Of a stretch of 64,000 bases of DNA, positions 26,482 through 39,912 are shown in pieces. The notes beneath the pieces were generated by a model, which was not told the DNA's origin, did no database searches, and saw nothing but the letters and a program-made list of their open reading frames with translations. This DNA comes from Fulvivirga lutea (GTDB taxonomy: Bacteria; Bacteroidota; Bacteroidia; Cytophagales; Cyclobacteriaceae): NCBI RefSeq assembly GCF_017068455.1, contig NZ_CP070608.1:2647488-2711487 (forward strand). Direction: 5' to 3'. The stretch's first letter is position 1, and each line of letters starts with the position of its first letter. The translations under genes were made by a program, and so were the position numbers.

Positions 26482-27411
26482 ATGAATAATAAATATGCGC
26501 TTGCCATACATGGTGGGGCAGGTACAATACTTAAATCAAAAATGAGTCCGGAGCAAGAAGTAACTTATAAAAAGGTACTAGAGGAGTCATTAATACAAGG
26601 CCAGAAGATTTTGAATTCAGGTGGTAGTTCACTCGATGCAGTGGAAGAGTCAGTAAAGGTTTTAGAAGATAGCCACTTATTTAATGCAGGTAAAGGAGCA
26701 GTATTTACAGCCGATGGAAAGCATGAAATGGAAGCTTCTATCATGTGTGGAAAATCTTTAGAAGCGGGTGCGGTTGCTGGAATTACTACACTAAAAAACC
26801 CCGTAACATTGTCGCGCAAAATATTAGCCGACAAAAATTATGTTTTTCTCTCAGGGCATGGTGCTGAAGAATACGGTGCTTTGCATAACTTGGAGATGGT
26901 TACAAATGACTATTTCTATTCCGATATGCGCTATGAACAGTGGCAGGCTTTAAAAGGATCTGATAAAACAGCGCTTGATCATACGGACGATAGAAAATTT
27001 GGAACCGTAGGTGCCGTAGCGCTGGATGTTCATGGTAATATTGCGGCAGCAACCTCTACCGGTGGCTTAACGAATAAAAAGTATGGAAGAATAGGAGATA
27101 GCTCTGTCATTGGAAGTGGTGTTTATGCTAATAATGATACTTGCGCTATTTCATGTACGGGTTACGGTGAATTTTTTCTTAGAGGAGTGGTTGCTTATGA
27201 TATATCATGTTTGATGGAATACGCCAATCTTTCTTTACAGGATGCAGCAGAGAAGGTGATTATGGAAAAGCAAACCAAATTAGGTGGAGAAGGTGGTATT
27301 GTTGGCGTAGATGCCAATGGTAATATGGCTTTGGTGTTTAATTCAGAAGGAATGTACAGGGGAATGGTGAACGAATCTACTCCACCAAAAGCCTTTATTT
27401 TCAGAGATTAA
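26482..27411 (+). CDS. iaaA: Isoaspartyl peptidase / L-asparaginase (Ntn hydrolase)
   Basis: The 309-aa cytoplasmic enzyme (no signal peptide) is a plant-type asparaginase. It opens with LAIHGGAGTI and carries the autocleavage site before T175 in KFGTVGAVALD, which becomes the N-terminal nucleophile of the beta subunit. TSTGG and SGVYANN follow as substrate and oxyanion loops. The family cleaves beta-aspartyl dipeptides, including beta-Asp-Arg released from cyanophycin. It converges on the carrier gene, with stop codons overlapping by 4 nt, and stands beside two cyanophycinase-like genes. That makes the last step of cyanophycin breakdown its likely job. Confidence 0.9.
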   Translation: MNNKYALAIHGGAGTILKSKMSPEQEVTYKKVLEESLIQGQKILNSGGSSLDAVEESVKVLEDSHLFNAGKGAVFTADGKHEMEASIMCGKSLEAGAVAGITTLKNPVTLSRKILADKNYVFLSGHGAEEYGALHNLEMVTNDYFYSDMRYEQWQALKGSDKTALDHTDDRKFGTVGAVALDVHGNIAAATSTGGLTNKKYGRIGDSSVIGSGVYANNDTCAISCTGYGEFFLRGVVAYDISCLMEYANLSLQDAAEKVIMEKQTKLGGEGGIVGVDANGNMALVFNSEGMYRGMVNESTPPKAFIFRD

Positions 27412-28793
27412 TTCCAGCTAAAAAATAATACAGGAGGTATTAATAATAACATAGCCAATATCGATAAAATGATGAAGAGTGGAAGCATCCATTTGAACCA
27501 TTTTTCATAAGGGATATTGGCTATGGTTAGTACCCCCATAGTTACTCCACTGGTAGGTATAATTAAATTCGATAACCCATCACCTAGTTGAAATGCCAGT
27601 ACCGCTGTCTGCCTTGAAACATTAATTAAATCACTAAGTGGGGCCATAATAGGCATGGTCAATGCTGCCTGCCCACTGCCTGACGGTAAGAAGAAGTTTA
27701 AGAATGTCTGTAATCCGAACATCAATTGAACAGACACTGCATTTGGAAAGCCATCCACACTGCTAGCCATAGCATTAAGAATCGTGTCAATAATTTTACC
27801 ATCAGAAGCTATTATGAGTATACCCTTGGCAATGGCAATCACAAAAGTAACTTTAATCATTTCAGAAGCACCTTTAACAAAACTGTCAATAGCAGTACCA
27901 CTATTCATTCTAAATACTATGGCAGAAACAACTGCCATGCAAACGAACAATGCCGATATCTCGTTGATGTACCAATCCCAGGCATTAACGCCATAAATAA
28001 GTGCAACAAGCCCTAGTAGAAAAATGATTATTACCGCCCTGTGTCTATTGGTAAATGTTATATGCTCCTGAGCCTGATTTTTATATTTTGAATTTTTATC
28101 GATATCGTACATCGGGCTTTTTTCTGGGTTCTTTTCTATTTTGCTGGCATAGATCATTACGAAAATGATAGCAGCTGACGTAAGAATAACCCATACAACA
28201 AGCCTGTATTCCCAACCGCTAAAAGGAGCTAATTCAGCAATTCCCTGAGCAATACCAACTGTGAATGGGTTTAAGAATGCTCCTGCAAAACCAGCACCTG
28301 CTCCAACAAACGGAATGCTAACACCAACAACAGAATCATACCCCAGAGCAAAGGAGAGGGGTAGAGTAATTAAAATAAACACTAAAACCTCTTCGCTCAT
28401 ACCGAAGGTGGCACCAGCAATGGAGAATAAAATCATCAATAAAGGAATAACCAGGCTTTTATATGCCTTATTTTTTTGGCTGGCTACTACAACACTTTGC
28501 AATCCAGCCTCAATAGCCCCTGTCTGATTAATTACACCGAAAGACCCCGCTACGAGAAATATAAATGTAATAATCTGAGCGGAAGATATAAATCCTTTGA
28601 TTGGGGCCAGAATGAAATCGAAAAGACCAGCAGGATTTGATGCTACTTCTTTATAACTATCTGCTACCACCAACTCTTTACCATTTACTACCTCTCTATC
28701 AAATTCACCCGATGGAACGATCCAGGTGAGTAGTGTGAAAACCAAAAGAATTGCAATAAGAAGAAGGAGGGTGTCAGGTAATTTAAATTTCAT
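27408..28793 (-). CDS. YfcC/DcuC-family inner-membrane carrier
   Basis: The 461-aa protein has about 12 membrane helices and the YfcC hallmarks: WIVPSGEFDRE after the first helix, FGMSEEVLVF, a mid-protein GAGAGFAGAFLNPFTVGIAQ, and a C-terminal LFLPSGSGQAALTMPIMAPL-like stretch ending FQLGDGLSNLIIPT. Members are annotated as basic amino acid or C4-dicarboxylate carriers. Here import of beta-Asp-Arg or arginine is the contextual inference. Its ATG overlaps the cyanophycinase stop by 4 nt (ATGA), so the two are translationally coupled. Confidence 0.85.
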   Translation of the reverse strand: MKFKLPDTLLLLIAILLVFTLLTWIVPSGEFDREVVNGKELVVADSYKEVASNPAGLFDFILAPIKGFISSAQIITFIFLVAGSFGVINQTGAIEAGLQSVVVASQKNKAYKSLVIPLLMILFSIAGATFGMSEEVLVFILITLPLSFALGYDSVVGVSIPFVGAGAGFAGAFLNPFTVGIAQGIAELAPFSGWEYRLVVWVILTSAAIIFVMIYASKIEKNPEKSPMYDIDKNSKYKNQAQEHITFTNRHRAVIIIFLLGLVALIYGVNAWDWYINEISALFVCMAVVSAIVFRMNSGTAIDSFVKGASEMIKVTFVIAIAKGILIIASDGKIIDTILNAMASSVDGFPNAVSVQLMFGLQTFLNFFLPSGSGQAALTMPIMAPLSDLINVSRQTAVLAFQLGDGLSNLIIPTSGVTMGVLTIANIPYEKWFKWMLPLFIILSILAMLLLIPPVLFFSWN

Positions 28794-29665
28794 TTTACTA
28801 ATGCGAATTTATCTCCCGGCAATAATACACTAACTTCAAGGTTTTCAGCGCCTAAAAGATGTTTGTTTTTTCTTAGCTGTTTATCATTATTGATAACCCT
28901 GATGACTTGAGACAGCCCAATAACTTCAGCACTATCGCCACTTACAATCAGGGCTGTAGACTCATCTATGCCTAAGCCTATTAAATCAGGATTTTCAATA
29001 CAAACACTAAATAATCTGTTATATCTACCGCGTTTAATAAAATGCTGATCTACCACAGCTGTGGTTAGCAATCCTAATCCCTGAGCGGTGATTATATTAT
29101 TACTCTCAATAGATCGGAGTGTATTGTCATAATCAGGATAATTACGCTCATTGCCCGTAATCATTAATTCACTCATAACAGCGGCACCTGCACTGGTTCC
29201 TGCTATGACACTTCCTTTCTTGTAAGCAGTTTTGATAGCTTCTTTTATTTCCGTGCCAGCTATAATATCCATGAATTTATTTTGATCGCCCCCTGAGATA
29301 TAGATAAGTGAAGCATTAGCAATAGAATCGATTTGTGATGGAGTAGGAGAGTCGCCTTTTTCAAAGTTCATTCCTACTACATTTGAAATACCTGCGTTGA
29401 GAAATTGTAGGTTGGCGTAATAAATAGCGGAATCGGGTTCTGAGCTAGACATAGGTAGAATGATGCCATAAGCACCACTTTTAAGGTTAGCCAGTTCTAT
29501 AATTTTATTCACCAAAATGGGCGGGCGACTACCACCTCCAATGATAAATAATTGCCCTTGGGCAGTGTTGGTAACTTCATTTACAGATTGCTCTTCGACT
29601 GGTTGCTCGTTACAAGCCAGTAACAAAGTACTGATACTAAAAAGTAAAAAATATAGTTGTTTCAT
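28790..29665 (-). CDS. cphB: Lipoprotein cyanophycinase (peptidase family S51)
   Basis: The 291-aa protein from ATG 29665 has a lipobox (TLLLAC). In numbering that adds three residues from an upstream TTG, the landmarks are GGDQ at 128-131, the nucleophile S161 in GTSAGAAVMSELMI, VDQHFIKRGRYNRL with H211, and GIDESTALIV with E238. All match the serine-exopeptidase cyanophycinase rather than PepE. Cyanophycinase releases beta-Asp-Arg dipeptides from cyanophycin. Lipidation puts it in the periplasm or on the cell surface. It has its own promoter and is coupled to the carrier gene. Confidence 0.9.
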   Translation of the reverse strand: MKQLYFLLFSISTLLLACNEQPVEEQSVNEVTNTAQGQLFIIGGGSRPPILVNKIIELANLKSGAYGIILPMSSSEPDSAIYYANLQFLNAGISNVVGMNFEKGDSPTPSQIDSIANASLIYISGGDQNKFMDIIAGTEIKEAIKTAYKKGSVIAGTSAGAAVMSELMITGNERNYPDYDNTLRSIESNNIITAQGLGLLTTAVVDQHFIKRGRYNRLFSVCIENPDLIGLGIDESTALIVSGDSAEVIGLSQVIRVINNDKQLRKNKHLLGAENLEVSVLLPGDKFALVK

Positions 29666-29671
29666 TGAATT

Positions 29672-29679
29672 CAAAGTTA
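29672..29679 (-). promoter_or_regulatory. -7 promoter element for the cyanophycinase-carrier unit
   Basis: TAACTTTG on the minus strand is a perfect TAnnTTTG. It sits 6 nt before the ATG at 29665, so any leader would be only 1-3 nt. It directly follows the T-tract of the preceding terminator. Confidence 0.55.
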
Positions 29680-29680
29680 T

Positions 29681-29716
29681 AAAAAAGAGGCCTCAACCGT
29701 TGTTGCAGGCCTCTTT
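29681..29716 (-). terminator. Intrinsic terminator after the SusCD-lipoprotein operon
   Basis: Perfect arms AAAGAGGCCT (29684-29693) and AGGCCTCTTT (29707-29716, + strand) enclose a 13-nt loop. On the minus strand the stem is followed by six T. It separates the PKD/propeller gene from the cyanophycinase gene. Confidence 0.9.
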
Positions 29717-29753
29717 CAATAAAAAGTATTTCACCTAAACCAAATGAATACTT

Positions 29754-30887
29754 TTATGGGATGAAGAATAAACCTCTAGGATCATTGAAGTCAGAGCTTA
29801 GCGTAACTTTATCACTACCGTCAAGGTTGATCATAAATACACTACCACTATTTCTTTCTGAATAGTATAATTTGCCATTGGTGTTGTCAACAACCAAACC
29901 ATAAACTCTGTTTCCAGTAGCTATTACGGTCTGAATTCCAGAACCATCGAGATTTGCCATCAAAATATTACCGGTGTCTGTATCATCAAAGTAGATTTTC
30001 TCATTCACTTTGTCTACTGCAATTCCATATCCATACCCGCCTGCATTATAATCAATGATTCTTGTAACACCGCTTCCATCAGTATTACCTACCCAAACAG
30101 ACTCTGCATCTATTTCAACACAAGTTATATATAGATTATTGTCGTAAAAATCTATCCCAACAGGTAATTCTCCTAAGCCATCATTTGCATTGTCATATAA
30201 TACAGTAGAGTTCCCACTTGACAAGTCGATTTCGTGTACAGCATGGACGCCAGCACCTCTATCGGTGATGTAAGCCTTATTATTATCCAAGTCTAAAGCA
30301 ACATCTCTTGGGTCTTCAAATCCTTCCGCTACAATTTCAGCGTCAGAACCGTCTAAATTAACCCTCCACAACTTACCTTCTCCCAGTACTTCGGCATCAG
30401 TGTAGTAAATCAATTCATTATCTGAGTCATACTCTATTCCTGTACCAAAACCATCTATTCCAAAAGATCCACCATTCACTTCACCGATCAATAAATCTGC
30501 TGCGTCAATTACAAAAAGCCTTGTTAGAAGTGCATCCGGATCTTTTATTACAACGGTTTTTTCGACAAAATCAAGATCGTCTTCTGTGACGGCAGTTAAT
30601 GTCACGGTATAGCTGCCCGGGCTTTCATAAAAATGGGTAGGATTTTCTTCGGAAGAAGAAGTTCCATCGCCAAAAGACCAATTAAAAGTTGCTGTCTTAC
30701 CTTCAGCCACTCTGGTCTCATTAGTAAAAGTGACAGTAGCCGGAGCAAATGCCTCATTATCAATGCTGAATGAATATTCTACATCAACAGTTGATGCCTG
30801 TGGCACAGGAAAGTCATCATCATTGCTACATGCAGCAACGACAAAGATTGATGCTGCAATAAATAATCTATTTAATAAATATTTCAT
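29754..30887 (-). CDS. PKD plus YWTD-propeller lipoprotein (A)
   Basis: The 377-aa lipoprotein (lipobox VVAAC followed by SNDDD, an acidic surface-export-like signal) has a PKD domain (about 30-115; FNWSFGDGTSSSEENPTHFY) and a six-bladed beta-propeller of YWTD/LDLR-B type. The propeller repeats motifs such as IYYTDAE, LWRVNLDGSD, DPRDVALDLDNNKAYITD and IYFDDTDTGNI. No catalytic residues are evident, so it probably binds ligand or partner proteins at the surface. It ends the susC-susD operon and is a close paralogue of the preceding gene, separated by 7 nt. Confidence 0.82.
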   Translation of the reverse strand: MKYLLNRLFIAASIFVVAACSNDDDFPVPQASTVDVEYSFSIDNEAFAPATVTFTNETRVAEGKTATFNWSFGDGTSSSEENPTHFYESPGSYTVTLTAVTEDDLDFVEKTVVIKDPDALLTRLFVIDAADLLIGEVNGGSFGIDGFGTGIEYDSDNELIYYTDAEVLGEGKLWRVNLDGSDAEIVAEGFEDPRDVALDLDNNKAYITDRGAGVHAVHEIDLSSGNSTVLYDNANDGLGELPVGIDFYDNNLYITCVEIDAESVWVGNTDGSGVTRIIDYNAGGYGYGIAVDKVNEKIYFDDTDTGNILMANLDGSGIQTVIATGNRVYGLVVDNTNGKLYYSERNSGSVFMINLDGSDKVTLSSDFNDPRGLFFIP

Positions 30888-30894
30888 GATTTCT

Positions 30895-32271
30895 TTAGTT
30901 AGATTTTCTAATAATCAGGCCACGAATATCAACAGTTGTATCGATAAGTACTTTTTCTTCAGAACCATCTAGGTTAGCCTCTTTAATTACTCCATCGCGG
31001 CTTGCAAAGTAGAATTTACCCGTCTCGTTATTAATAGCAATTCCATATACGCGGTCAGATGGGGCGCCAACAGTTTCAATATTTGACCCATCTAAATCAG
31101 CTCTTAGAATATTACTTCCGTCATTGTCATCAAAGTAAATTTTCTCGTTTACTTTATCTACTTCAATTCCATAGCCAAAGCCACCGGAACTGTAGTCAAT
31201 GATTTTGGAAATACCTGAACCATCAACATTTCCTGTCCAAACAGTTTCAGCATCGAAATCAACTGCAGTTGCATAAAGGTTGCCATTGTATAGATCTAGC
31301 CCCACTGGCAGTAAGAATAAACCATCATCAGCTACACTATATACTACCGATTTAGTACCAGTAGATAAATCAACTTCAGTGATTTGATCGGATGATCTTT
31401 CTGTTACAAATAATCGATTATTGGCAACATCCAATGCAATATCCCGAGGTCCATTTAGTCCATCAGTGATTTCAACTTCATTACCACCATTAACTGAATT
31501 TCTGAAAATTTTGAACGCATCATCATCGGAAAAATATAGCTCATCAAATTCAGGATCATAGGCTAAGCCAAAACTAAACCCTGGTAAATCAAAGACATCC
31601 ACTATTGTTTCAGGATCATTCAAATTGATTTTTTGAACTTTTAAGTCGGTATTGTTAATGAAGTATAGTTCAAAGTCATTTGGATTAATAGTTATTGTAA
31701 CCGTTGATGAACTTTCTCCGCCCGTTCCTGTGGCTGTTAGCTTAACATCAAAATCTCCTGCTGTGGTATAAACAAAGGTTGGATTTTCTTCGGTACTAGT
31801 AGAGTTATTCGCATCGCCAAAATCCCACACATAGCTAATTCCATTAACAGTTTCATTTACAAACTGAACGGTTGTGGAAACACGTAAATCATCTGAATTT
31901 TCTACTGAAAATGCCGTTTCAGGAATTAAACCTTCAATTATTACTTCTTGTGATGCCAAATCTCTTTGGCCATTGCCAGAAGCTTCTAGTGTAACAGTAA
32001 ATGTACCTGGCTCACTGTATACATGTGTCACAGACTTTCCAACAGCTACATTTCCATCTCCAAAAGACCACTTGTAAGAGAACGCATTAACTGCGGATGC
32101 TGTAAAAGTAACTTCCTCACCTTGTTTTAAAATACTGGACTCAGCAATGGTGAAATCAGCTGTAGGAGCGGGCCCAAGCTCATTATCGTCATCATCGGAG
32201 CAGCCTCCAAAAATGGCTAATGACAGAAATAAAGCCATTAACCAATGATTATTTTTTATATATGTTTTCAT
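30895..32271 (-). CDS. Double-PKD plus YWTD-propeller lipoprotein (B)
   Basis: The 458-aa lipoprotein (AIFGGCSDDDDNE signal with acidic +2 residues) has two PKD domains (about 35-115 and 118-200; YKWSFGDGNVAVG and YVWDFGDANNST). A YWTD-type propeller contains LYFSDDDAFKI, PRDIALDVANNRLFVTER, VGLDLYNGNLYATAVDFDAE and IYFDDNDGSNI, nearly identical to blades in lipoprotein A. It begins 1 nt after susD on the coding strand, so it fills the SusE/SusF slot. It is likely a surface substrate-binding protein, by inference from position. Confidence 0.82.
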   Translation of the reverse strand: MKTYIKNNHWLMALFLSLAIFGGCSDDDDNELGPAPTADFTIAESSILKQGEEVTFTASAVNAFSYKWSFGDGNVAVGKSVTHVYSEPGTFTVTLEASGNGQRDLASQEVIIEGLIPETAFSVENSDDLRVSTTVQFVNETVNGISYVWDFGDANNSTSTEENPTFVYTTAGDFDVKLTATGTGGESSSTVTITINPNDFELYFINNTDLKVQKINLNDPETIVDVFDLPGFSFGLAYDPEFDELYFSDDDAFKIFRNSVNGGNEVEITDGLNGPRDIALDVANNRLFVTERSSDQITEVDLSTGTKSVVYSVADDGLFLLPVGLDLYNGNLYATAVDFDAETVWTGNVDGSGISKIIDYSSGGFGYGIEVDKVNEKIYFDDNDGSNILRADLDGSNIETVGAPSDRVYGIAINNETGKFYFASRDGVIKEANLDGSEEKVLIDTTVDIRGLIIRKSN

Positions 32272-32272
32272 A

Positions 32273-33598
32273 TTAATTGTATTCTGGGTTTTGTACTAAT
32301 GTTCCATCAGAGATATTAATCTCTCTTCTTGGTATAGGAAAAATCCTTCTAAAGCTTTCTAAGCCACGAATCGATTCCATTCTTCCATAGCGCACCATGT
32401 CAAACCAGTAGTGGCCTTCAAAGGCAAACTCTGCTCTTCGCTCATTAAGTAGCACAGTCAGTAGTTCTGCATCACTGGCAATATTTGTAAATGAAGTTAA
32501 ACCTGCTCTATTTCTTACCGCATTGATATCCGGTAAGGCATCATTAGGAACTCCATCTCTTCCTAAGGCTTCAGCACGGATTAAATACATCTCAGATAGA
32601 CGAATTATAATCGTATTTTCACCATCTTCTTGAGGGGTTGTGCCATATTTAATACATCTGTTTAATCCACTACTTGTTGTTTCAAATAGCATTCCTCGCT
32701 CATTTTCATTTCTATTGTTGAAAAAGTCGATGAGATTATTGGTTACTGAAACTTCAGGAGGGTTGTTATACATTTCTATTGACCATACATTAGGATCATC
32801 TTGTTGTATAAACTCCAACTCAAAAATAGCTTCGGATGATTCTTCAGTTGTGTAGATTTCGTTATAGTCATCAGGTAAATTACCTAGCTCATTGATCACT
32901 TCAGTTGCTAAAGTTTCTGCTTGATCGAACTCATTTTGATAAAGATGCACTCGTGCTTTAAGTGCTTTTGCTGCAACTTTTGAAGCAAAGAATGGGCTTG
33001 CACTTTCTAGTCGATCTATAGCCTCCTGTAAGTCAGACTCAATTTGAGTATACGAGTTTGCAACAGTAGCACGAGCTGTTTCCGAAGGTGCCAGTGAGGG
33101 CTGTAGTTTTAATGGAATTCCAAATTCAGAACTAACATTAAAAAATTCACCATATTGTCTCAATGCATCGAAAAATGCCAAACCTCTTATAAAATAGGCC
33201 TGGCCGAGCATATCACTTTTTTCTGATTCTGTAAGTTCAGATATTTGCGGAATATATTCAATCACAATATTTGCTGCATTGACTGTAGCATATAGTGCTA
33301 TCCAGCTATCCTCAACATGAAAGTTTGATGCTGGTACTCGACCACTTGCTAACTCTTGCCAAAATGCCTGAAATGCTGATGCAGTACCATTTCCAGCTAC
33401 CATTTCTGTCGCCATTATGTATCTTCCACCGTAATAATCACCATCTTGCAATGTATGATATAAACCGTTTACGGCAGCCGTAGCTGATTGTCTATCAACT
33501 AGAGCATTTTGGGTTTGAACAAACGTCTCTGGTTCTTGATCTAAAACATTACATCCAGTCAAGAATAGTCCATATATAATTATGTATTTCAATTTCAT
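32273..33598 (-). CDS. susD: SusD/RagB-family outer-membrane lipoprotein
   Basis: The 441-aa lipoprotein (MKLKYIIIYGLFLTGC, lipid Cys16) has the SusD beginning NVLDQEPETFVQTQNAL, TPR-like helices with FIRGLAFFDALRQYGEF, and the C-terminal region RLSEMYLIRAEALGR, INAVRNRAGL and FAFEGHYWFDMVRYGR. That full set is diagnostic. SusD lids the SusC pore and binds ligand. It is shorter than many glycan SusDs (about 500-550 aa), leaving room for a different ligand. It lies 11 nt downstream of susC. Confidence 0.95.
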   Translation of the reverse strand: MKLKYIIIYGLFLTGCNVLDQEPETFVQTQNALVDRQSATAAVNGLYHTLQDGDYYGGRYIMATEMVAGNGTASAFQAFWQELASGRVPASNFHVEDSWIALYATVNAANIVIEYIPQISELTESEKSDMLGQAYFIRGLAFFDALRQYGEFFNVSSEFGIPLKLQPSLAPSETARATVANSYTQIESDLQEAIDRLESASPFFASKVAAKALKARVHLYQNEFDQAETLATEVINELGNLPDDYNEIYTTEESSEAIFELEFIQQDDPNVWSIEMYNNPPEVSVTNNLIDFFNNRNENERGMLFETTSSGLNRCIKYGTTPQEDGENTIIIRLSEMYLIRAEALGRDGVPNDALPDINAVRNRAGLTSFTNIASDAELLTVLLNERRAEFAFEGHYWFDMVRYGRMESIRGLESFRRIFPIPRREINISDGTLVQNPEYN

Positions 33599-33609
33599 AT
33601 TAATTGATA

Positions 33610-36600
33610 TTATAGTCCAATATTAATTCCAATACTATAGCTTCTTGCCTGACCCAATGTTCCGAAGTCTTCTCCTTGCGATGTGTTCAATGCTTCATCA
33701 GAATCTGTATTTGTGGATACTTCAGGGTCAAAGCCTAAGTAATCAGTCCAGGTAATTAAATTCCTCCCTTGTACGTAAATTTCAACATTTGATAATTTAG
33801 CTTTTTCAATAATTGACTTTGGTAAACTATAAGATAGCTTCACGTTCTTTAATCTCATGAAATCTCCATCTTCCAAATATTGAGTGCTAAATCTTTGCCA
33901 TTGAGCATCAGGATCGCTAGGACCGGCTAAAGATGGTCTTGGAATATTTGTTATATCACCGGGTTGTCTCCAATAATTTAATGATTCTATACTTTGGTTT
34001 CCATAAGGCAAACCACTTTGCAATGACCCATAGTTTTGATAGGCATGCCTACTCTGATTAAAGATTTTATTACCTCCACTGAACTGAAAAAAGACATCTA
34101 ATGATAAGCCTTTGTAAGTAAACGTGTTGTTAAATCCACCAAAGTAAGTCGGAATACCTGACCCAACAGCTTGACGATCATCTAAATTAATGATGCCGTC
34201 ACCGTTAAAATCTTCAAATACAGCATCTCCCGTAAATGGGTCTACACCTTGAAATTTTATTAAGTACAATTGACTTATTGGTTTCCCTTCAAGAAGGACA
34301 AAGTTTCTTGATAATACCTGTCCATTATTAATTACATCCACAACTTCATTCTCAATGTGAGTAAAGTTTGCATTTGCCGACCACGTAAAATCACCTCTTC
34401 TTAGGATATTCGCATTTATACTGAATTCAAAACCTTTATTGTTGATTTCTCCTTCATTTGAGATAATATCTCTGAATCCTGTTGTGCCTGGAATATCTTG
34501 ATCAAAAAGAAGATCAGTTGTTTCTTTTTCGAAATAATCGGCAGTTAAACTTATTTTTCCATCAAATAATGAAAAATCCAGGCCTAAATTCAGTTGAGTT
34601 GTAGACTCCCAACTCACAGTGGGGTTACCTAGTTGAGAAGCACTTGCTCCACCTGAACCATTATAGGAATCATCAAAACTATATATATTCTGTGATCTAA
34701 AGTTGCCTATTTCAGCATTTCCAATTGTTCCATAGCTGGCTCTCAATTTAAAATCACTAAATACATTGGCCAGAGGAGTAAAAAAATTCTCATTTGATAA
34801 TCTCCACCCTAAAGAAACAGAAGGAAAGTTTCCTATTCTGTTGTCTTTACCAAACCTTGAAGAACCATCACTTCGGTATGTTAAATTAATTAAATACTTG
34901 TCTCTGTAATTGTAATTTATTCGACCTATCACAGACTCAAAACCAAAAGAAGTAACTGATGAACTTCCAGTTCTATTTGCAGCAGTGGAAATTGTTTGTA
35001 CCCTATTATCAGAAAAACCAGTACCAGATACGTCTGAAAATTTGGCCCTTGATTCTTGCAGGGTATAGCCAGCTAATAAATTGAATCTGTGATCATTATT
35101 TAAAGTAAAATCATAGGTTAATGTGTTCTCATTTAACCACGAAGATTCACTATAAGTTGCATAAATACCTGAACCAACAGATGCCTGTTGACTTCCTATA
35201 GGTACGAATCCTTCGTCAATTAAAGAATTAATATCTACCGACCAGGATGATTTGAAATTTAAGTTTTCAATGATTTCATAAGTTCCTGATATGGTGGCAA
35301 ACAATCTTGTTGTTTCAGATTCATTTTTATACTCATTCGCAATATAAACTGGGTTTTCTAATGCCCACCAGCCATTATAATCGAATGGATTGGAGTAAGA
35401 ACCGTCTTCTTCAAATAAAGGAGCGGTAGGGTCCCAAGCTTGTGCATTAACAACTACACCATATTCATCATTTTCACCAATGGTGCGTTGATGATTCGTT
35501 CTGGAAACATAGAGGTTTGAACTTATTCCCAACTTTTCCGAAGCAGAGTGGTCTAAATTTAATCGACCTGAGATACGTTCAAAATTTTGTCCTAATTGAA
35601 TGCCTTCTTGATCGAAATAATTCCCTGAAAAGAAAAACTTTGTTTTTTCATCACCACCTTGCGCGCTTAAATCCACATTATGCGCTATGGCTGTTCTCAA
35701 TATTTCGTCATATGCATTGTACGTTGGTAAATTAGGGTCATTTGGATCTCCTAAAGTTGAATTCCAGTAGTTAGGGCCTAAACCATCAAACTCCGCAGCT
35801 GCATTCATAAATTCAATCCATTGTTTTGAACTCATCAATTCTGGAATGTTGTTGACCTTTGAGATACTAGTATTATAACCAATATTAAATTTGGTTTTTC
35901 CAGCTTTACCGCGTTTTGTAGTTATTATAATAACGCCATTAGCACCTCTTGATCCGTAAATGGCAGCGGCAGACGCATCCTTTAATACTGATATAGTTTC
36001 GATATCATTAGGGTTAATATCTGCTAATGGATTTAATGGTTGAATATTTGAGCTTAAAGCTGAGTTGTTTGATGCTACAAGTGGTATACCATCAACAACA
36101 TATAGTGGTTGACTACTTGCTCCGAATGAGGTTACACCTCTGATATTGACAGATGCACGGGCACCAGGAGTAGCACTTGAAGTAGCAATATTTAATCCAG
36201 CTGTTCTACCTTGCAAAGCACCATCAAAACTCGAATTAGCAGGTACATTAGCAATTAATTCATTATCAACAGTCGATATAGAACTCGTAATATCTTTTCG
36301 TTTTTGAGTTCCGTAACCTACAACTACAACTTCTGAAAGTTGTGTGATATCAGGTACAAGTTGAACATCAATAACCGATTGATTACCAACAGTGATTTCT
36401 TCGGTTACCATTCCTATAAAGGAGAAAATTAGAGTGCTTTCAGGGTTAGGGGCTTCGATAGTATATGCACCATCAATATCAGTTACCGTACCTGAGGTAG
36501 TTCCTTTAATAACTACACTTACGCCAGGTAAAGGTTCACCATCTTCAAATGAGGTGACTTTACCACTCACTTTGGTTTGTGCAATTGCAGAAATGCTAAT

Positions 36601-36645
36601 ACACAAACACATAGAAAAGAGCATTGCTATGCGCTTCATATACAT
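33610..36645 (-). CDS. susC: SusC/RagA-family TonB-dependent transporter
   Basis: The 1011-aa receptor has a signal peptide, a carboxypeptidase-regulatory-like domain (GEPLPGVSVVIKGTTSGTV, TDIDGAYTI), and the TonB-box region LSEVVVVGYGTQKRKDITSSI. The plug contains RGVTSFGASSQPLYVVDG and VLKDASAAAIYGSRGANGV, and a 22-strand barrel ends SIGINIGL. It imports a ligand captured by SusD. In this locus the best inference is oligo- or dipeptides from cyanophycin. ATG 36645 is followed two codons later by a second possible ATG (36639). No ECF-sigma/anti-sigma pair is adjacent. Confidence 0.95.
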   Translation of the reverse strand: MYMKRIAMLFSMCLCISISAIAQTKVSGKVTSFEDGEPLPGVSVVIKGTTSGTVTDIDGAYTIEAPNPESTLIFSFIGMVTEEITVGNQSVIDVQLVPDITQLSEVVVVGYGTQKRKDITSSISTVDNELIANVPANSSFDGALQGRTAGLNIATSSATPGARASVNIRGVTSFGASSQPLYVVDGIPLVASNNSALSSNIQPLNPLADINPNDIETISVLKDASAAAIYGSRGANGVIIITTKRGKAGKTKFNIGYNTSISKVNNIPELMSSKQWIEFMNAAAEFDGLGPNYWNSTLGDPNDPNLPTYNAYDEILRTAIAHNVDLSAQGGDEKTKFFFSGNYFDQEGIQLGQNFERISGRLNLDHSASEKLGISSNLYVSRTNHQRTIGENDEYGVVVNAQAWDPTAPLFEEDGSYSNPFDYNGWWALENPVYIANEYKNESETTRLFATISGTYEIIENLNFKSSWSVDINSLIDEGFVPIGSQQASVGSGIYATYSESSWLNENTLTYDFTLNNDHRFNLLAGYTLQESRAKFSDVSGTGFSDNRVQTISTAANRTGSSSVTSFGFESVIGRINYNYRDKYLINLTYRSDGSSRFGKDNRIGNFPSVSLGWRLSNENFFTPLANVFSDFKLRASYGTIGNAEIGNFRSQNIYSFDDSYNGSGGASASQLGNPTVSWESTTQLNLGLDFSLFDGKISLTADYFEKETTDLLFDQDIPGTTGFRDIISNEGEINNKGFEFSINANILRRGDFTWSANANFTHIENEVVDVINNGQVLSRNFVLLEGKPISQLYLIKFQGVDPFTGDAVFEDFNGDGIINLDDRQAVGSGIPTYFGGFNNTFTYKGLSLDVFFQFSGGNKIFNQSRHAYQNYGSLQSGLPYGNQSIESLNYWRQPGDITNIPRPSLAGPSDPDAQWQRFSTQYLEDGDFMRLKNVKLSYSLPKSIIEKAKLSNVEIYVQGRNLITWTDYLGFDPEVSTNTDSDEALNTSQGEDFGTLGQARSYSIGINIGL

Positions 36646-36663
36646 TAAGTTTAATTAGTTAAT

Positions 36664-36706
36664 AAAAAGTAATAAATAGAGGATGACGTAATCGCTTAAG
36701 AGTCAA
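36664..36706 (-). promoter_or_regulatory. Leader motif upstream of susC shared with the secreted cyanophycinase gene
   Basis: This 43-bp stretch matches 39149-39191 at 32 of 43 positions without gaps, centred on AGAGGATG (+ strand). A second, weaker block (36752-36782 versus 39197-39227, 20 of 31) lies further upstream with different spacing. Both precede genes of the same pathway, so a common regulatory or mRNA-leader role is likely. The 36646-36889 gap has no gene. Confidence 0.5.
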
Positions 36707-36889
36707 GCGAACATCAATAAGGAAATAGCAAAAATCTAGCAGTTGAAGATAGGCTGCAAATTCAGTAAACTGATTGGCTTGGCGCCTTTTGCACCTATTG
36801 GACGTAAAGATGTTTTTGGTAAACGATTCATCAACACTTTTTCGATGTTATTCCAATGATAAGTTAATTTTAACTTTAAGTCAAGAATA

Positions 36890-39127
36890 TCAATCGTTTA
36901 AAATAATCACTTTTTTTCTTTCAATAATTTTCTCATTTCTTCCAATAACTAAATAAGTTCCTGATTTTAAGGTAGATACATCCATTACTTGCTCTTTAAT
37001 ATCTGTATTGGAATAAATTAAATTACCTAGCAAATCATAAATAGAATATGTCCAATGGGAATTGGATTCTAATTTGAGTCGTCCGGTTGTGCACGGATTA
37101 GGATAGACTACTAGATTATTTTGTATTGCGTTGTCAGTTGAAGTTATTACGCGATACTGAACTATTTCTGAATAGCATGACTCTATGGAGCCATCAACCG
37201 CTTTTATTCTATAAGAAATTAATTGATTGTTTATAAGATCTGTATCTATTGCACTTCGCATTTCACCCGATATTTCTGCTAGTATTTCAAACTCACCTTC
37301 ATCTATCTTTTTCTCAAGAATAAATTTTTCAGGGTTTTGATAATCATAGTCAAATGTGATCACATTATCAGTAATAGTTAAATTGGTTGGTCTGGCCAAT
37401 TCATTTGTGAATTGTATGTCTGATGATAATGAATTACCCAGCTTCAATATTGAATTGTGGACGAAAGAAACCTTCATCTGATCAAACCCGGCAACATTTC
37501 TTACATTACCTCCAGCGTTTACTTGTTGATTGGCAAAATCTCCACTTGTAGAAGTGTTTGTTACGACAATGCTTGAATAATTACCACCACCTGTTAGTAA
37601 TGTCTCGTCATTTTCGTTAAAAATATCAACGATTGAGTTTCTATTAATTAATATTCCATGCTGAAGATTGTATTTGGCTAATCCGTAAAATATAGAACTC
37701 GTATTATTTTCGTAAAAATCTGTGGTTGAACTGCTGTAAGCATCAGTTATTACTAAACCATTGATTAGACCTATACCATCCTTAAATTCCAAATCACCAA
37801 AATATGAGTTAAAAGGGTCAGATAGATTGTTGGTTACCCACTTTTGCCCAGCGACCTTGGCATTATCACCTAAAAAGAAAGAAACCGTTTCATCAGCCAA
37901 TAACTTGTCGGCAATAACCTGACCATTAGGGTTGTCTAGCAGAAACTGGCTAAGTACTTCCAAATCATTACCTACAAATAGAAATACATCAGTTTCTCTA
38001 ATTTTATTTCTTAATGAGGCATAGCCACATTCTTCATCTGCTACGGTGCTTGGAATTAGAGTTACTTCAAAATTTAATGATTCTAAAGCATTTTTATATT
38101 CTTCTTCTATACTGCTTTCCATTTCTGAAACTACAATGGCATCGGCCTTTTCAAGAGTAGAAAGGATATCAAGCACACTATTATTTTCATTAGCGTTGCT
38201 GGATCCGCTAATAATTACTCTTGATCTTTTATAACTATCGACATTTGGAGAGGTGTTTTCTGTATAAGTATCAAGCTGTGTTTTTGCTGTTAGATCGTAA
38301 GAAGACTCATGCAGTAGTTGGGTAACTGTAATGTCTTTCTCATTTAATTTCCCATCTGTTTGATTGAGTGATGAAGCGCTAAATATATTTACTGCACCGG
38401 TTCCGTATACAGTACCTACATTATTTTCATCGATACAAAAAGCAGTTCTGTCGTCTACGCCAATACCACCTACCAACTCATTAGTAGCTTCGTACCAGTT
38501 GGCCATGAAAGCTATAAGTCTGGGAAACCTGCCTCGCTCAACGAAATGGGTATCAACGATGTAATCATCCAATAAATTAATGAAATCGTTTTTTAGTGTA
38601 ATCTTAGAATCAAGAACATTGGCTAATGCCTGGTCAGGGTAGAGGGTACCGTTTTCTGCGGAGTAAAATGGATTAGAAATCATGGCCATTCCGGCAGAAG
38701 TTCCGGCAATGACTCCACCAGCGTTAAACTTATCTAAAATGGCATTTTGCACTTCACTGCCCTGGTAAGTGAGATAGTAGTTTGACTGATCTCCACCTTT
38801 AAAGAAGAATACGTCATATTCCATAAGGGTATTGTAAGTGTCAATGCTATTAGCCAGATCAGTGGTGTTAATAATAAAATTAACAGCATCAACAGCCCCT
38901 AGACTCTTAAAGTAGTCTGGCAGCCATTCCGGATCACTGCTTTCTGAAAATGATATGATGCCTACCTTTTTATTGGTTGACTGATCGACTGCCCATGAGT
39001 AAGGTTGGTTACTCCAACTCCAGGATTCGTCTCGTTCGCCACCACCACCCACAAGCATGAGTTTACCCTGAGCGTTTAATTTATTGATTGTGAGTATAAG
39101 AACTATGTATATTAGTAACTTCTTCAT
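36890..39127 (-). CDS. T9SS-secreted cyanophycinase-like protein with a second degenerate domain
   Basis: The 745-aa precursor has a signal peptide (cut after LNAQ). A first S51/cyanophycinase domain (about 21-270) has GGDQ 111-114, nucleophile S144 in GTSAGMAMIS, and DTHFVERGRFPRL with H194; GVDDRTAF replaces the usual GIDE-TA. A second copy (about 300-520) keeps the fold cues (VFLFVGNDLE, GQVIADKLL) but has GDNAK at 420-424 where GTSAG is expected. A fibronectin-like segment (about 575-660) and a C-terminal T9SS sorting domain (VVYPNPCTTGRLKLES, STLKSGTYLV) follow. It would start cyanophycin attack outside the cell. It lies directly upstream of the susC operon on the same strand. Confidence 0.85.
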   Translation of the reverse strand: MKKLLIYIVLILTINKLNAQGKLMLVGGGGERDESWSWSNQPYSWAVDQSTNKKVGIISFSESSDPEWLPDYFKSLGAVDAVNFIINTTDLANSIDTYNTLMEYDVFFFKGGDQSNYYLTYQGSEVQNAILDKFNAGGVIAGTSAGMAMISNPFYSAENGTLYPDQALANVLDSKITLKNDFINLLDDYIVDTHFVERGRFPRLIAFMANWYEATNELVGGIGVDDRTAFCIDENNVGTVYGTGAVNIFSASSLNQTDGKLNEKDITVTQLLHESSYDLTAKTQLDTYTENTSPNVDSYKRSRVIISGSSNANENNSVLDILSTLEKADAIVVSEMESSIEEEYKNALESLNFEVTLIPSTVADEECGYASLRNKIRETDVFLFVGNDLEVLSQFLLDNPNGQVIADKLLADETVSFFLGDNAKVAGQKWVTNNLSDPFNSYFGDLEFKDGIGLINGLVITDAYSSSTTDFYENNTSSIFYGLAKYNLQHGILINRNSIVDIFNENDETLLTGGGNYSSIVVTNTSTSGDFANQQVNAGGNVRNVAGFDQMKVSFVHNSILKLGNSLSSDIQFTNELARPTNLTITDNVITFDYDYQNPEKFILEKKIDEGEFEILAEISGEMRSAIDTDLINNQLISYRIKAVDGSIESCYSEIVQYRVITSTDNAIQNNLVVYPNPCTTGRLKLESNSHWTYSIYDLLGNLIYSNTDIKEQVMDVSTLKSGTYLVIGRNEKIIERKKVIILND

Positions 39128-39148
39128 TGCATTTGAATTGATTGAAAG

Positions 39149-39191
39149 AATAAGAAATAAAAAGAGGATGCAATGATCTACTAACAGTCAA
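39149..39191 (-). promoter_or_regulatory. Leader motif upstream of the secreted cyanophycinase gene
   Basis: This is the partner of 36664-36706 (32 of 43 identical, core AGAGGATG on the + strand). It lies 22-64 bp before the start at 39127 and therefore probably in the 5' leader. Confidence 0.5.
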
Positions 39192-39278
39192 AAACTGGCT
39201 GTAGATTACGAAGTTGAATTGGTTTGGAGAAGAAATCAATTCTCATGATTTCAATTATAATCAAAAAAAATTTTAGAG

Positions 39279-39602
39279 CTAAACTAATTTGTTCATTTCT
39301 TTAAGTTTACTAATGAGCAAATTCAATGATGACTCTTTACCATCTAATTCAATAATTAGTTTTAAATTTTCTTGGGTAGTGCTGGAATCTGTAAATTTTT
39401 CATTTTTGGTTATACTGCAAAGTTCATCGAGTGTGATACCATATAAACCAGCAATTTTAACAGCCTGATCTAATTTAATAGGGGTTTTTCCACTTTCATA
39501 TTTACCATAAGTGGTATAATCTACACCTATTTCTGATGCTAAATACTCTTGTGTAAAGTTCGCTTTAAACCGTAAAAACTTAAGTTTTTTATAAACTGTC
39601 AT
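39279..39602 (-). CDS. XRE-family helix-turn-helix regulator
   Basis: From ATG 39602 the product is 107 aa (a TTG three codons upstream is rejected). Residues about 5-60 form a Cro/C1 HTH: LRFKANFTQEYLASEIGVDYTTYGKYESGKTPI in two adjoining parts, with the typical Q-E-L-A turn and Y-x-x-x-E-x-G recognition end. The C-terminal 45 residues, DGKESSLNLLISKLKEMNKL, could dimerise. It lies upstream of, and on the same strand as, the secreted cyanophycinase (150-bp gap), making it the best candidate regulator of the locus. Confidence 0.85.
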   Translation of the reverse strand: MTVYKKLKFLRFKANFTQEYLASEIGVDYTTYGKYESGKTPIKLDQAVKIAGLYGITLDELCSITKNEKFTDSSTTQENLKLIIELDGKESSLNLLISKLKEMNKLV

Positions 39603-39912
39603 AAATATCAAAGATATCTATCAGGTTAACGTTATTATAGGAGAATTAATCTTGTAATATGAGTTTATATAGGAGTATAGAAGAAGGTTTATACTTAATA
39701 AGATTAAAAGATCATTAATGAACTTATTGTTAAACAATAATTGCTCTTTTCTGATTTAAATAGCTTTATTATTAAATTATATCATGTTTATATAATACAA
39801 AAAAATAATATTGTTTAATAAAGGGAGAAATAAAATTATATTTAGAGCAGAAAGGTTACATTCATCCATAATTTGTCCACCACCAAATTATTTTATAATG
39901 TAATATCCAGCT
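39603..39912. other. AT-rich intergenic region
   Basis: These 310 bp between divergent genes are very AT-rich and hold no plausible gene or hairpin terminator. They must contain both promoters, but I could not single out a convincing -7 element. Confidence 0.5.

Follow-up and report, generated by a model that had tools for sequence, protein, structure and literature searches.

Cyanophycin is a nitrogen-rich storage polymer of cyanobacteria, and its extracellular consumers are little described in the literature that we searched. In this work, we describe a locus in a 64,000-nucleotide stretch of the genome of Fulvivirga lutea (contig NZ_CP070608.1, positions 2,647,488 to 2,711,487; referred to below as the window), in which genes for two cyanophycinase-like S51 proteins are grouped with those for a SusC/SusD outer-membrane importer, and which very probably serves for the use of extracellular cyanophycin. 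The described systems that come closest to it are from other Bacteroidota, from Citromicrobium, which is an alphaproteobacterium, and from Pseudomonas. A "cyanophycin utilization locus" consisting of cyanophycinase, iadA and transporter genes was reported by Ben Hania in 2017 for the Bacteroidota strain L21-Spi-D4 (Salinivirga), and Flammeovirga pacifica WPAGA1 is said to carry a cluster of the same type (both as related in PMC10206079). For one of the two S51 proteins of strain L21-Spi-D4, a Por secretion domain is implied by the accessible text of PMC6243061. In Citromicrobium sp. JLT1363, a TonB-dependent transporter is encoded beside a cyanophycinase, and cyanophycin was proposed as its substrate based upon this context (PMC3400609).

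Like the locus of strain L21-Spi-D4, that of the window brings together cyanophycinase genes, an isoaspartyl dipeptidase gene and a transporter gene, and both appear suited to scavenging, but the dipeptidase is IadA in the former and IaaA in the latter. For Citromicrobium, the accessible part of PMC3400609 describes neither a SusD protein nor a set of two enzymes. The secreted S51 enzyme of the window resembles Pseudomonas CphE in being exported and in having Thr at the position of Gln173 of CphB; however, CphE is exported by the Sec pathway (PMC3235067), whereas the window enzyme is a cargo of the type IX secretion system (T9SS), contains a second S51-fold domain and has Asp in place of the catalytic Glu. 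With RagAB and other SusCD importers the locus shares a SusC/SusD pair accompanied by further lipoproteins, but its probable substrate is different and its degradative enzymes are S51 cyanophycinases. An earlier account made from the DNA alone (the sequence-only reading) knew of no described cyanophycin version of such a system, a statement that needs qualification in view of the reports in PMC10206079 and PMC3400609. The kind of locus is already known, and the SusCD genes, the second S51 domain and the M20 peptidase module described below are additions to it, as far as the consulted literature showed. No description of a cyanophycin SusCD locus was found in the open literature searched, and the open papers that name both cyanophycin and SusD draw, in their accessible text, no link between the two.

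The interpretation of this locus as a SusCD system for extracellular cyanophycin was also the core of the sequence-only reading. It gains support from the pocket residues of the S51 enzymes, the synteny in related genomes, the results from an unbiased sample of genomes and the separate location of CphA1 gene clusters, and the substrate is on this basis very probably cyanophycin.

The Locus in Fulvivirga lutea

The window is part of a single-contig genome of 4.14 Mb (G000). The genes that the sequence-only reading had named are all open and in place. Located between 26482 and 39611, they include a run on the minus strand comprising, in this order, the XRE, S51/T9SS, SusC and SusD genes, two genes for PKD/propeller lipoproteins, and those for the S51 lipoprotein and the YfcC carrier; the isoaspartyl peptidase gene is convergent with this run.

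36890..39127, minus strand: T9SS-secreted cyanophycinase-like S51 protein (TIGR02069, 92.4 bits, below the cut-off of 126.6; PF03575, 38.5 bits, cut-off 23.9)
33610..36645, minus strand: SusC, TonB-dependent outer-membrane importer (TIGR04056, 906.5 bits)
32273..33598, minus strand: SusD, surface lipoprotein with NVLDQEPE after the lipid cysteine (PF07980, 97.7 bits; PF14322, 78.3 bits)
30895..32271, minus strand: lipoprotein with two PKD domains and a propeller-like part, signal CSDDDDNEL
29754..30887, minus strand: lipoprotein with one PKD domain and a YWTD-type beta-propeller, signal CSNDDDFPV
28790..29674, minus strand: S51 cyanophycinase lipoprotein, probably facing the periplasm, CNEQPVEEQ without an acidic run (TIGR02069, 151.8 bits, cut-off 126.6)
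27408..28793, minus strand: inner-membrane carrier of the DcuC/YfcC family (PF03606, 356 bits)
26482..27411, plus strand: isoaspartyl peptidase of the IaaA type, no signal peptide by eye (Asparaginase_2, PF01112, 345.8 bits)
39279..39611, minus strand: XRE-type helix-turn-helix protein by family searches, of doubtful membership

The family scores, the sorting domain and the lipid cysteine bear out the presence of two cyanophycinase-like proteins, one secreted by the T9SS and the other a lipoprotein, and the families and the acidic runs after the lipid cysteine do the same for SusC/SusD and two further lipoproteins that are probably at the surface. The isoaspartyl peptidase was rightly assigned to its family, but its gene lies on the opposite strand. 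An LDL-receptor class B repeat scores 40.2 bits in the 29754-30887 protein (cut-off 21) and 20.5 bits, just below the cut-off, in the 30895-32271 protein. The gaps from SusC through the second propeller gene are only 1 to 11 bases and the genes for the S51 lipoprotein and the carrier overlap by 4 bases, a spacing which suggests that susCD and both S51 genes, all on one strand, form a single operon.

The two S51 genes of the locus are the only S51 matches in the genome, which has four SusC genes above the cut-off and two matches to the window SusD, and the set of genes is kept outside the species; hence, their grouping is not due to chance. Adjacent susC and susD with further lipoprotein genes are characteristic of SusCD nutrient-uptake loci, and the combination of cyanophycinase, isoaspartyl dipeptidase and transporter genes is that of the cyanophycin utilization locus as told in PMC10206079. 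No carbohydrate-active enzyme family was found in the scanned proteins of the locus, which is in this respect not a polysaccharide utilization locus. The T9SS translocon protein SprA is encoded in the genome (2496.7 bits). Within the genus the locus is patchy, the secreted enzyme being closely matched (E <= 1e-187) in 2 of the 14 same-genus genomes searched. Elsewhere in the chromosome, at G000:C1:93042-96203 and 3861695-3864856, SusC is matched twice with almost equal scores (652.4 and 651.7 bits), and when the genome was searched with the window SusD, no SusD was found to adjoin these matches.

Active Site, Domains and Phylogeny of the S51 Enzymes

In CphB, Gln101, Asp172, Gln173, Arg178, Arg180 and Arg183 are reported to be critical and Ser132 to be catalytic, and the extracellular CphE has Thr at the position of Gln173 (PMC3235067). 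In our alignment both window enzymes keep Gln101, Asp172, Arg178, Arg180, Arg183 and Ser132, and at the remaining position the lipoprotein has Gln, as in CphB, and the secreted enzyme Thr, as in CphE. All nine catalytic and pocket residues, including Ser, His and Glu, are present in the window lipoprotein, and none of these nine positions varies in the 84 S51 rows of the lipoprotein class, which represent 83 distinct loci (L061 and L142 are one, and the broken L126 was left out). The residue set is likewise kept in all 17 S51 proteins adjacent to CphA1, which have Thr or Ser at position 173, whereas the related aspartyl dipeptidase PepE of E. coli, used as a control, differs at Gln101, Asp172, Gln173 and Arg178. 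The nearest solved structure of both enzymes is 7uqv (114.3 bits for the lipoprotein and 57.9 for the secreted enzyme), followed by Synechocystis CphB, 3en0 (75.7 and 34.6 bits, respectively).

The secreted enzyme comprises a catalytic S51 domain (approximately residues 20-287) and a type A C-terminal domain of the T9SS (approximately 670-745), the latter recognized by TIGR04183 (43.9 bits, cut-off 23) and by fold matches to T9SS C-terminal domains. In its predicted structure, residues of about 300-517 form a second S51-fold domain that lacks the catalytic serine, which is joined to the C-terminal domain by a linker of low confidence. Phylogenetic analysis of 98 S51 domains places the secreted type in one group (21 rows, support 100/100) and the CphA1-linked type in a separate one (17 rows, 93/89), while the lipoprotein class (38 rows) lies across a 97/98 branch together with PepE, the placement of which is unsure. 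The two window enzymes thus belong to separate clades. Broken S51 genes, divided between two frames, were seen in L126 and at L133:17764-19719.

Conservation of the Locus within Bacteroidota

Related loci were collected as the 80 best of 294 matches to an alignment of the S51 lipoprotein, a set which is biased to close relatives, and their neighbours were recorded within 11 kb using thresholds of 200 bits for SusC and 50 bits for SusD, with models built from these loci. SusC or SusD is found beside S51 in 65 of the 80 loci and both in 59, so that the synteny that the sequence-only reading had proposed to look for in relatives is indeed present. A propeller lipoprotein is near S51 in 58/80 and a second S51 gene in 39/80. 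The hosts of S51 loci include Fulvivirga, Flammeovirga, Chryseolinea, Gelidibacter, Winogradskyella, Polaribacter and Christiangramia as well as metagenome-assembled genomes (MAGs) of Bacteroidales and Salinivirgaceae. The locus of F. pacifica WPAGA1 (L123) contains S51/T9SS-type, SusC, SusD, propeller, S51, IaaA, YfcC and S51 genes; in one Salinivirgaceae MAG (L113) S51 occurs with SusC and SusD, and in another (L133) its neighbours are IadA, a SusC of distant relationship and a further S51 gene, the one broken into two frames.

We also took an unbiased sample of Bacteroidota, comprising 198 genomes; S51 matches at E 1e-30 occur in 42 of these. Based upon their scores, the matches fall into class A (>=278 bits, 10 including the window), class B (210-245 bits, 13) and class C (<140 bits, 30 matches), and the neighbourhoods of the nine other class A, all 13 class B and 18 of the 30 class C genes were taken. 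A SusC and SusD pair lies beside S51 in 5/9 of class A, 0/13 of class B and 0/18 of class C (A versus C, Fisher p 0.0016), while CphA1 lies beside it in 0/9, 0/13 and 9/18, respectively.

The class B genes (L190-L202, e.g. L196:770-11477) mark a second kind of cyanophycinase-linked set, with relatives of the non-SusC TonB-dependent receptor of L196 in 11/13, an RpiR-type regulator in 11/13, a cytoplasmic-looking M20 peptidase in 10/13, YfcC in 6/13, a protein with a T9SS tail in 12/13 and a SusC/SusD pair in none. In a Flammeovirga locus, the propeller and S51 genes are separated by a gene (L130:8117-9643) for a 509-aa protein that combines RTX repeats with a C39-like peptidase domain, and a gene of equal size occupies this position in L134. 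Two class A S51 genes are beside a gene for a penicillin-amidase-family or DUF4953/DUF5117 protein (L184:7343-9538, L186:6884-9388). A Bacteroidota-like SusCD-S51 locus on a contig labelled Halorubrum (archaeon MAG, L136) is probably a binning error.

Regarding regulation, the XRE gene had been counted as part of the locus. No XRE homologue better than E 1.6e-4 was found in loci L061-L228, and it was rejected as the locus regulator since the gene is not conserved. FecR and an extracytoplasmic function (ECF) sigma factor are found in 20/80 related loci. A scan with a promoter consensus of the phylum gave two matches in the window, none of them in the locus, against 4.7 expected, and sigma-70 and terminator scans of the window gave no excess over shuffled sequences.

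Probable Surface Lipoproteins and Cellular Location

In Bacteroidota, an acidic run after the lipid cysteine is a mark of surface lipoproteins. At positions +2 to +6 after the lipobox cysteine, the propeller lipoproteins have on average 2.9 acidic residues (at least two in 50/53) and the SusD proteins 1.9 (at least two in 47/60), as against 0.7 for the S51 lipoproteins (at least two in 7/33); the lipobox was found by a crude pattern rather than a predictor, which was unmatched in 51/84 S51, 41/94 propeller and 10/70 SusD proteins and overlooks some likely lipoboxes, e.g. that of L081. Because the acidic run is present in the former and absent in the latter, the propeller proteins and SusD would be placed at the surface, and the S51 lipoprotein probably faces the periplasm. 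The sequence-only reading had allowed for trimming by this lipoprotein either in the periplasm or at the surface, and of these the surface is the less likely site. The structure of the 29754-30887 lipoprotein was modelled with a predicted local distance difference test score (pLDDT) of 88.0, and its best Foldseek matches are the propellers of megalin, LRP, LDLR and nidogen, a similarity of fold that was established for this one protein.

We built a tree of 94 SusD sequences, of which 62 have S51 within 12 kb and 32 do not; on it, this label changes five times, compared with a mean of 26.8 after shuffling, and well-supported branches force at least three changes. The window SusD falls in a nine-row group in which all have S51, with a support of 98 in the Shimodaira-Hasegawa-like approximate likelihood ratio test (SH-aLRT), the only support computed for this quick tree. 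As the label is clustered yet changes several times, the linkage of SusCD with S51 has arisen or been lost on more than one occasion.

Carriers and Dipeptidases of the Proposed Last Step

The isoaspartyl peptidase of the window matches the E. coli-type structure 2zak with 312.4 bits and the NCBIfam equivalog with 352.4 bits, below its cut-off of 567, and IaaA also adjoins S51 in L081 and L084, which are from two other Fulvivirga genomes. The carrier scores 388.5 bits with the equivalog of the YfcC basic amino acid antiporter, below its cut-off of 500, and belongs to the wider DcuC family. Among the 80 loci, YfcC is present in 39 and one of three dipeptidase types in 48, with no locus having two types. 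IaaA occurs in 16 loci (15 with YfcC), IadA in 13 (8 with YfcC) and an M20 peptidase in 19, none of which has YfcC (Fisher p 2.7e-7, uncorrected for kinship, 16 of the 19 being from flavobacteria and L085, L102 and L160 not). YfcC accompanies IaaA or IadA in 23 loci and is found without any of the three dipeptidases in 16; IaaA or IadA without YfcC occurs in 6.

The N-termini of the 15 M20 proteins inspected by eye resemble Sec signals, whereas most of those of IaaA and IadA do not. The GHxDT, DMKGG and GDEE motifs are invariant in the 19 M20 proteins, and for the one that was compared with solved structures, carboxypeptidase G2 is the nearest relative (95 bits). The end module thus looks swappable, consisting either of a YfcC carrier, which is mostly accompanied by IaaA or IadA in the cytoplasm, or of an exported M20 peptidase; where the carrier is present the dipeptide would be split in the cytoplasm, and where it is absent, in the periplasm by M20. 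The association with cytoplasmic dipeptidases suggests that the window carrier imports beta-Asp-Arg, on which the IaaA-type enzyme would act, and makes the M20 proteins candidates for a new kind of beta-Asp-Arg dipeptidase.

With regard to genomes with CphA1, Sharon and Schmeing state for Firmicutes and Bacteroidota that their isoaspartyl dipeptidases "remain undiscovered" (PMC10206079). In our data, IaaA is near CphA1 in 16 of 17 loci (8/9 and 8/8), in some as weak matches. As the published gap concerns CphA1 genomes, where IaaA was found, the M20 proteins would fill a gap in scavenging loci and not the published one.

Storage versus Scavenging of Cyanophycin

No CphA1 above the cut-off was found in the window genome (best match 108.3 bits versus 850). 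The search for CphA1 covered 50 genomes of the 80 loci, and the nine in which it is present above the cut-off, most of them drafts, all belong to the 42 in which S51 is accompanied by SusC or SusD. In all eight genomes with an unbroken CphA1 and an S51 locus, CphA1 occurs with a class C S51 gene and IaaA on contigs that differ in length from those of the S51 locus, and in the S51 tree the CphA1-adjacent protein falls in another clade than that of the locus. Because the CphA1 clusters are separate from the S51-SusCD locus, the storage and scavenging sets are distinct in these genomes. We had expected cyanophycin makers to be the hosts of those S51 loci that lack SusCD, but this was not borne out by the eight such genomes among the 50: CphA1 is unmatched at E 1e-60 in seven, and in L125 the match is partial and, with 257.6 bits, below the cut-off.

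Proposed Route and Alternative Explanations

The gene families and their conserved order, the pocket residues, the predicted domain structure and the export signals, all of which are observed, are consistent with the following route. The T9SS-secreted S51 enzyme would shorten cyanophycin outside the cell, where SusD and the two PKD/propeller lipoproteins may hold the polymer or its oligomers at the surface. SusC, energised by TonB, would then take in oligomers or dipeptides, and on the periplasmic side the S51 lipoprotein would complete the degradation to beta-Asp-Arg. This dipeptide would pass into the cytoplasm through the YfcC-type carrier, and IaaA may there cleave it to Asp and Arg. The substrate, the order and sites of these steps and the specificity of the carrier are what we infer.

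Among the alternatives, the one that survives best, though we consider it unlikely, is that the locus imports isoaspartyl peptides generally, derived from aged or damaged proteins or from the beta-Asp bridges of peptidoglycan, and that its S51 enzymes act on beta-aspartyl peptides without being specific for cyanophycin. RagA, which is a SusC-family peptide importer, is among the matches to the window SusC (377.4 bits, the best being another SusC homologue with 492.8 bits), all three dipeptidase types are missing from the vicinity in 32/80 loci, and Arg178 is gone from a third of the second S51 proteins (see below); IaaA and IadA are, moreover, described as promiscuous (PMC10206079). However, both window S51 enzymes keep the cyanophycin pocket despite belonging to separate clades, whereas PepE does not, and among the recurrent neighbour clusters given to Pfam the sole endopeptidase near S51 is an opposite-strand subtilase in three loci. 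An ordinary glycan locus that merely adjoins unrelated cyanophycin genes is highly improbable: most of the studied SusCD pairs serve glycan uptake, but this explanation was rejected as no carbohydrate-active enzyme family is present in the locus, and it also disagrees with the S51-SusC/SusD association in 65/80 relatives, the similarity of the modelled propeller to YWTD propellers of animal receptors, and the lack of a SusC and SusD pair near the 18 class C genes. Recycling of the organism's own cyanophycin, to which the CphA1 genes of 9/50 S51-locus genomes might point, was rejected as there is no CphA1 above the cut-off in the window genome, and the export signals on both window S51 enzymes and the separate CphA1-S51-IaaA clusters in 8/8 genomes make it similarly improbable.

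A number of observations weigh against the use of extracellular cyanophycin by this locus. The catalytic motifs noted by the sequence-only reading are complete in the lipoprotein, but the secreted enzyme has Ser and His with Asp for the catalytic Glu201, and the second S51 proteins of related loci keep Arg178 in 32/48 and are without it in 16/48, with Glu201 in 26/48 and Asp in 22/48. The nearest structure, 7uqv, is named a cyanophycinase but titled "pseudo-CphB", and the substrate may therefore be a cyanophycin variant. SusC/SusD is lacking in 15/80 S51 loci, some of them cut by contig ends (L084, L109, L121, L129 and L143 are on contigs of < 9 kb), only a distant SusC is present in 3 of the 65 positive ones (L127, L128, L133), and 4/9 class A loci of the unbiased sample are without the pair. 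In F. aurantia (L084) IaaA is beside the S51 gene with no YfcC, and IaaA enzymes are said to be promiscuous even in cyanophycin clusters (PMC10206079). Further, SusD relatives at 35-40% identity (L070-L079) have no nearby S51, and three of these ten genomes (G124, G070, G065) have no S51 match at all. A single chromosomal site holds either the full locus (L063; L166) or SusCD alone (L070-L073, L075; L161), where L166 and L161 were assigned from gene sizes and the flanks were read as IscA-like and epimerase genes without a family search. Because S51-free SusCD relatives exist, some of them at sites of the full locus, this SusCD branch is not everywhere tied to cyanophycin.

Despite these points, the reading of the window locus as one for extracellular cyanophycin remains very probable. 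A broader proposal, which we put forward tentatively as a real possibility, is that SusCD cyanophycin loci are a widespread modular system of Bacteroidota in which a secreted enzyme with two tandem S51 domains, the second of them dead, is combined with SusCD, a periplasmic S51 enzyme and a swappable end module, and that two M20 families are new beta-Asp-Arg dipeptidases. In this proposal, and with the same reserve, the end module would be either YfcC with cytoplasmic IaaA, IadA or (in class B) M20, or an exported periplasmic M20 without a carrier.

Significance

If the proposed function is correct, it would extend the SusCD importers to a non-glycan, isopeptide-branched polymer, and the locus would provide a gene marker for the consumers of cyanophycin. 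In addition, the survey supplies two families of M20 peptidases as candidate beta-Asp-Arg dipeptidases for scavenging loci.

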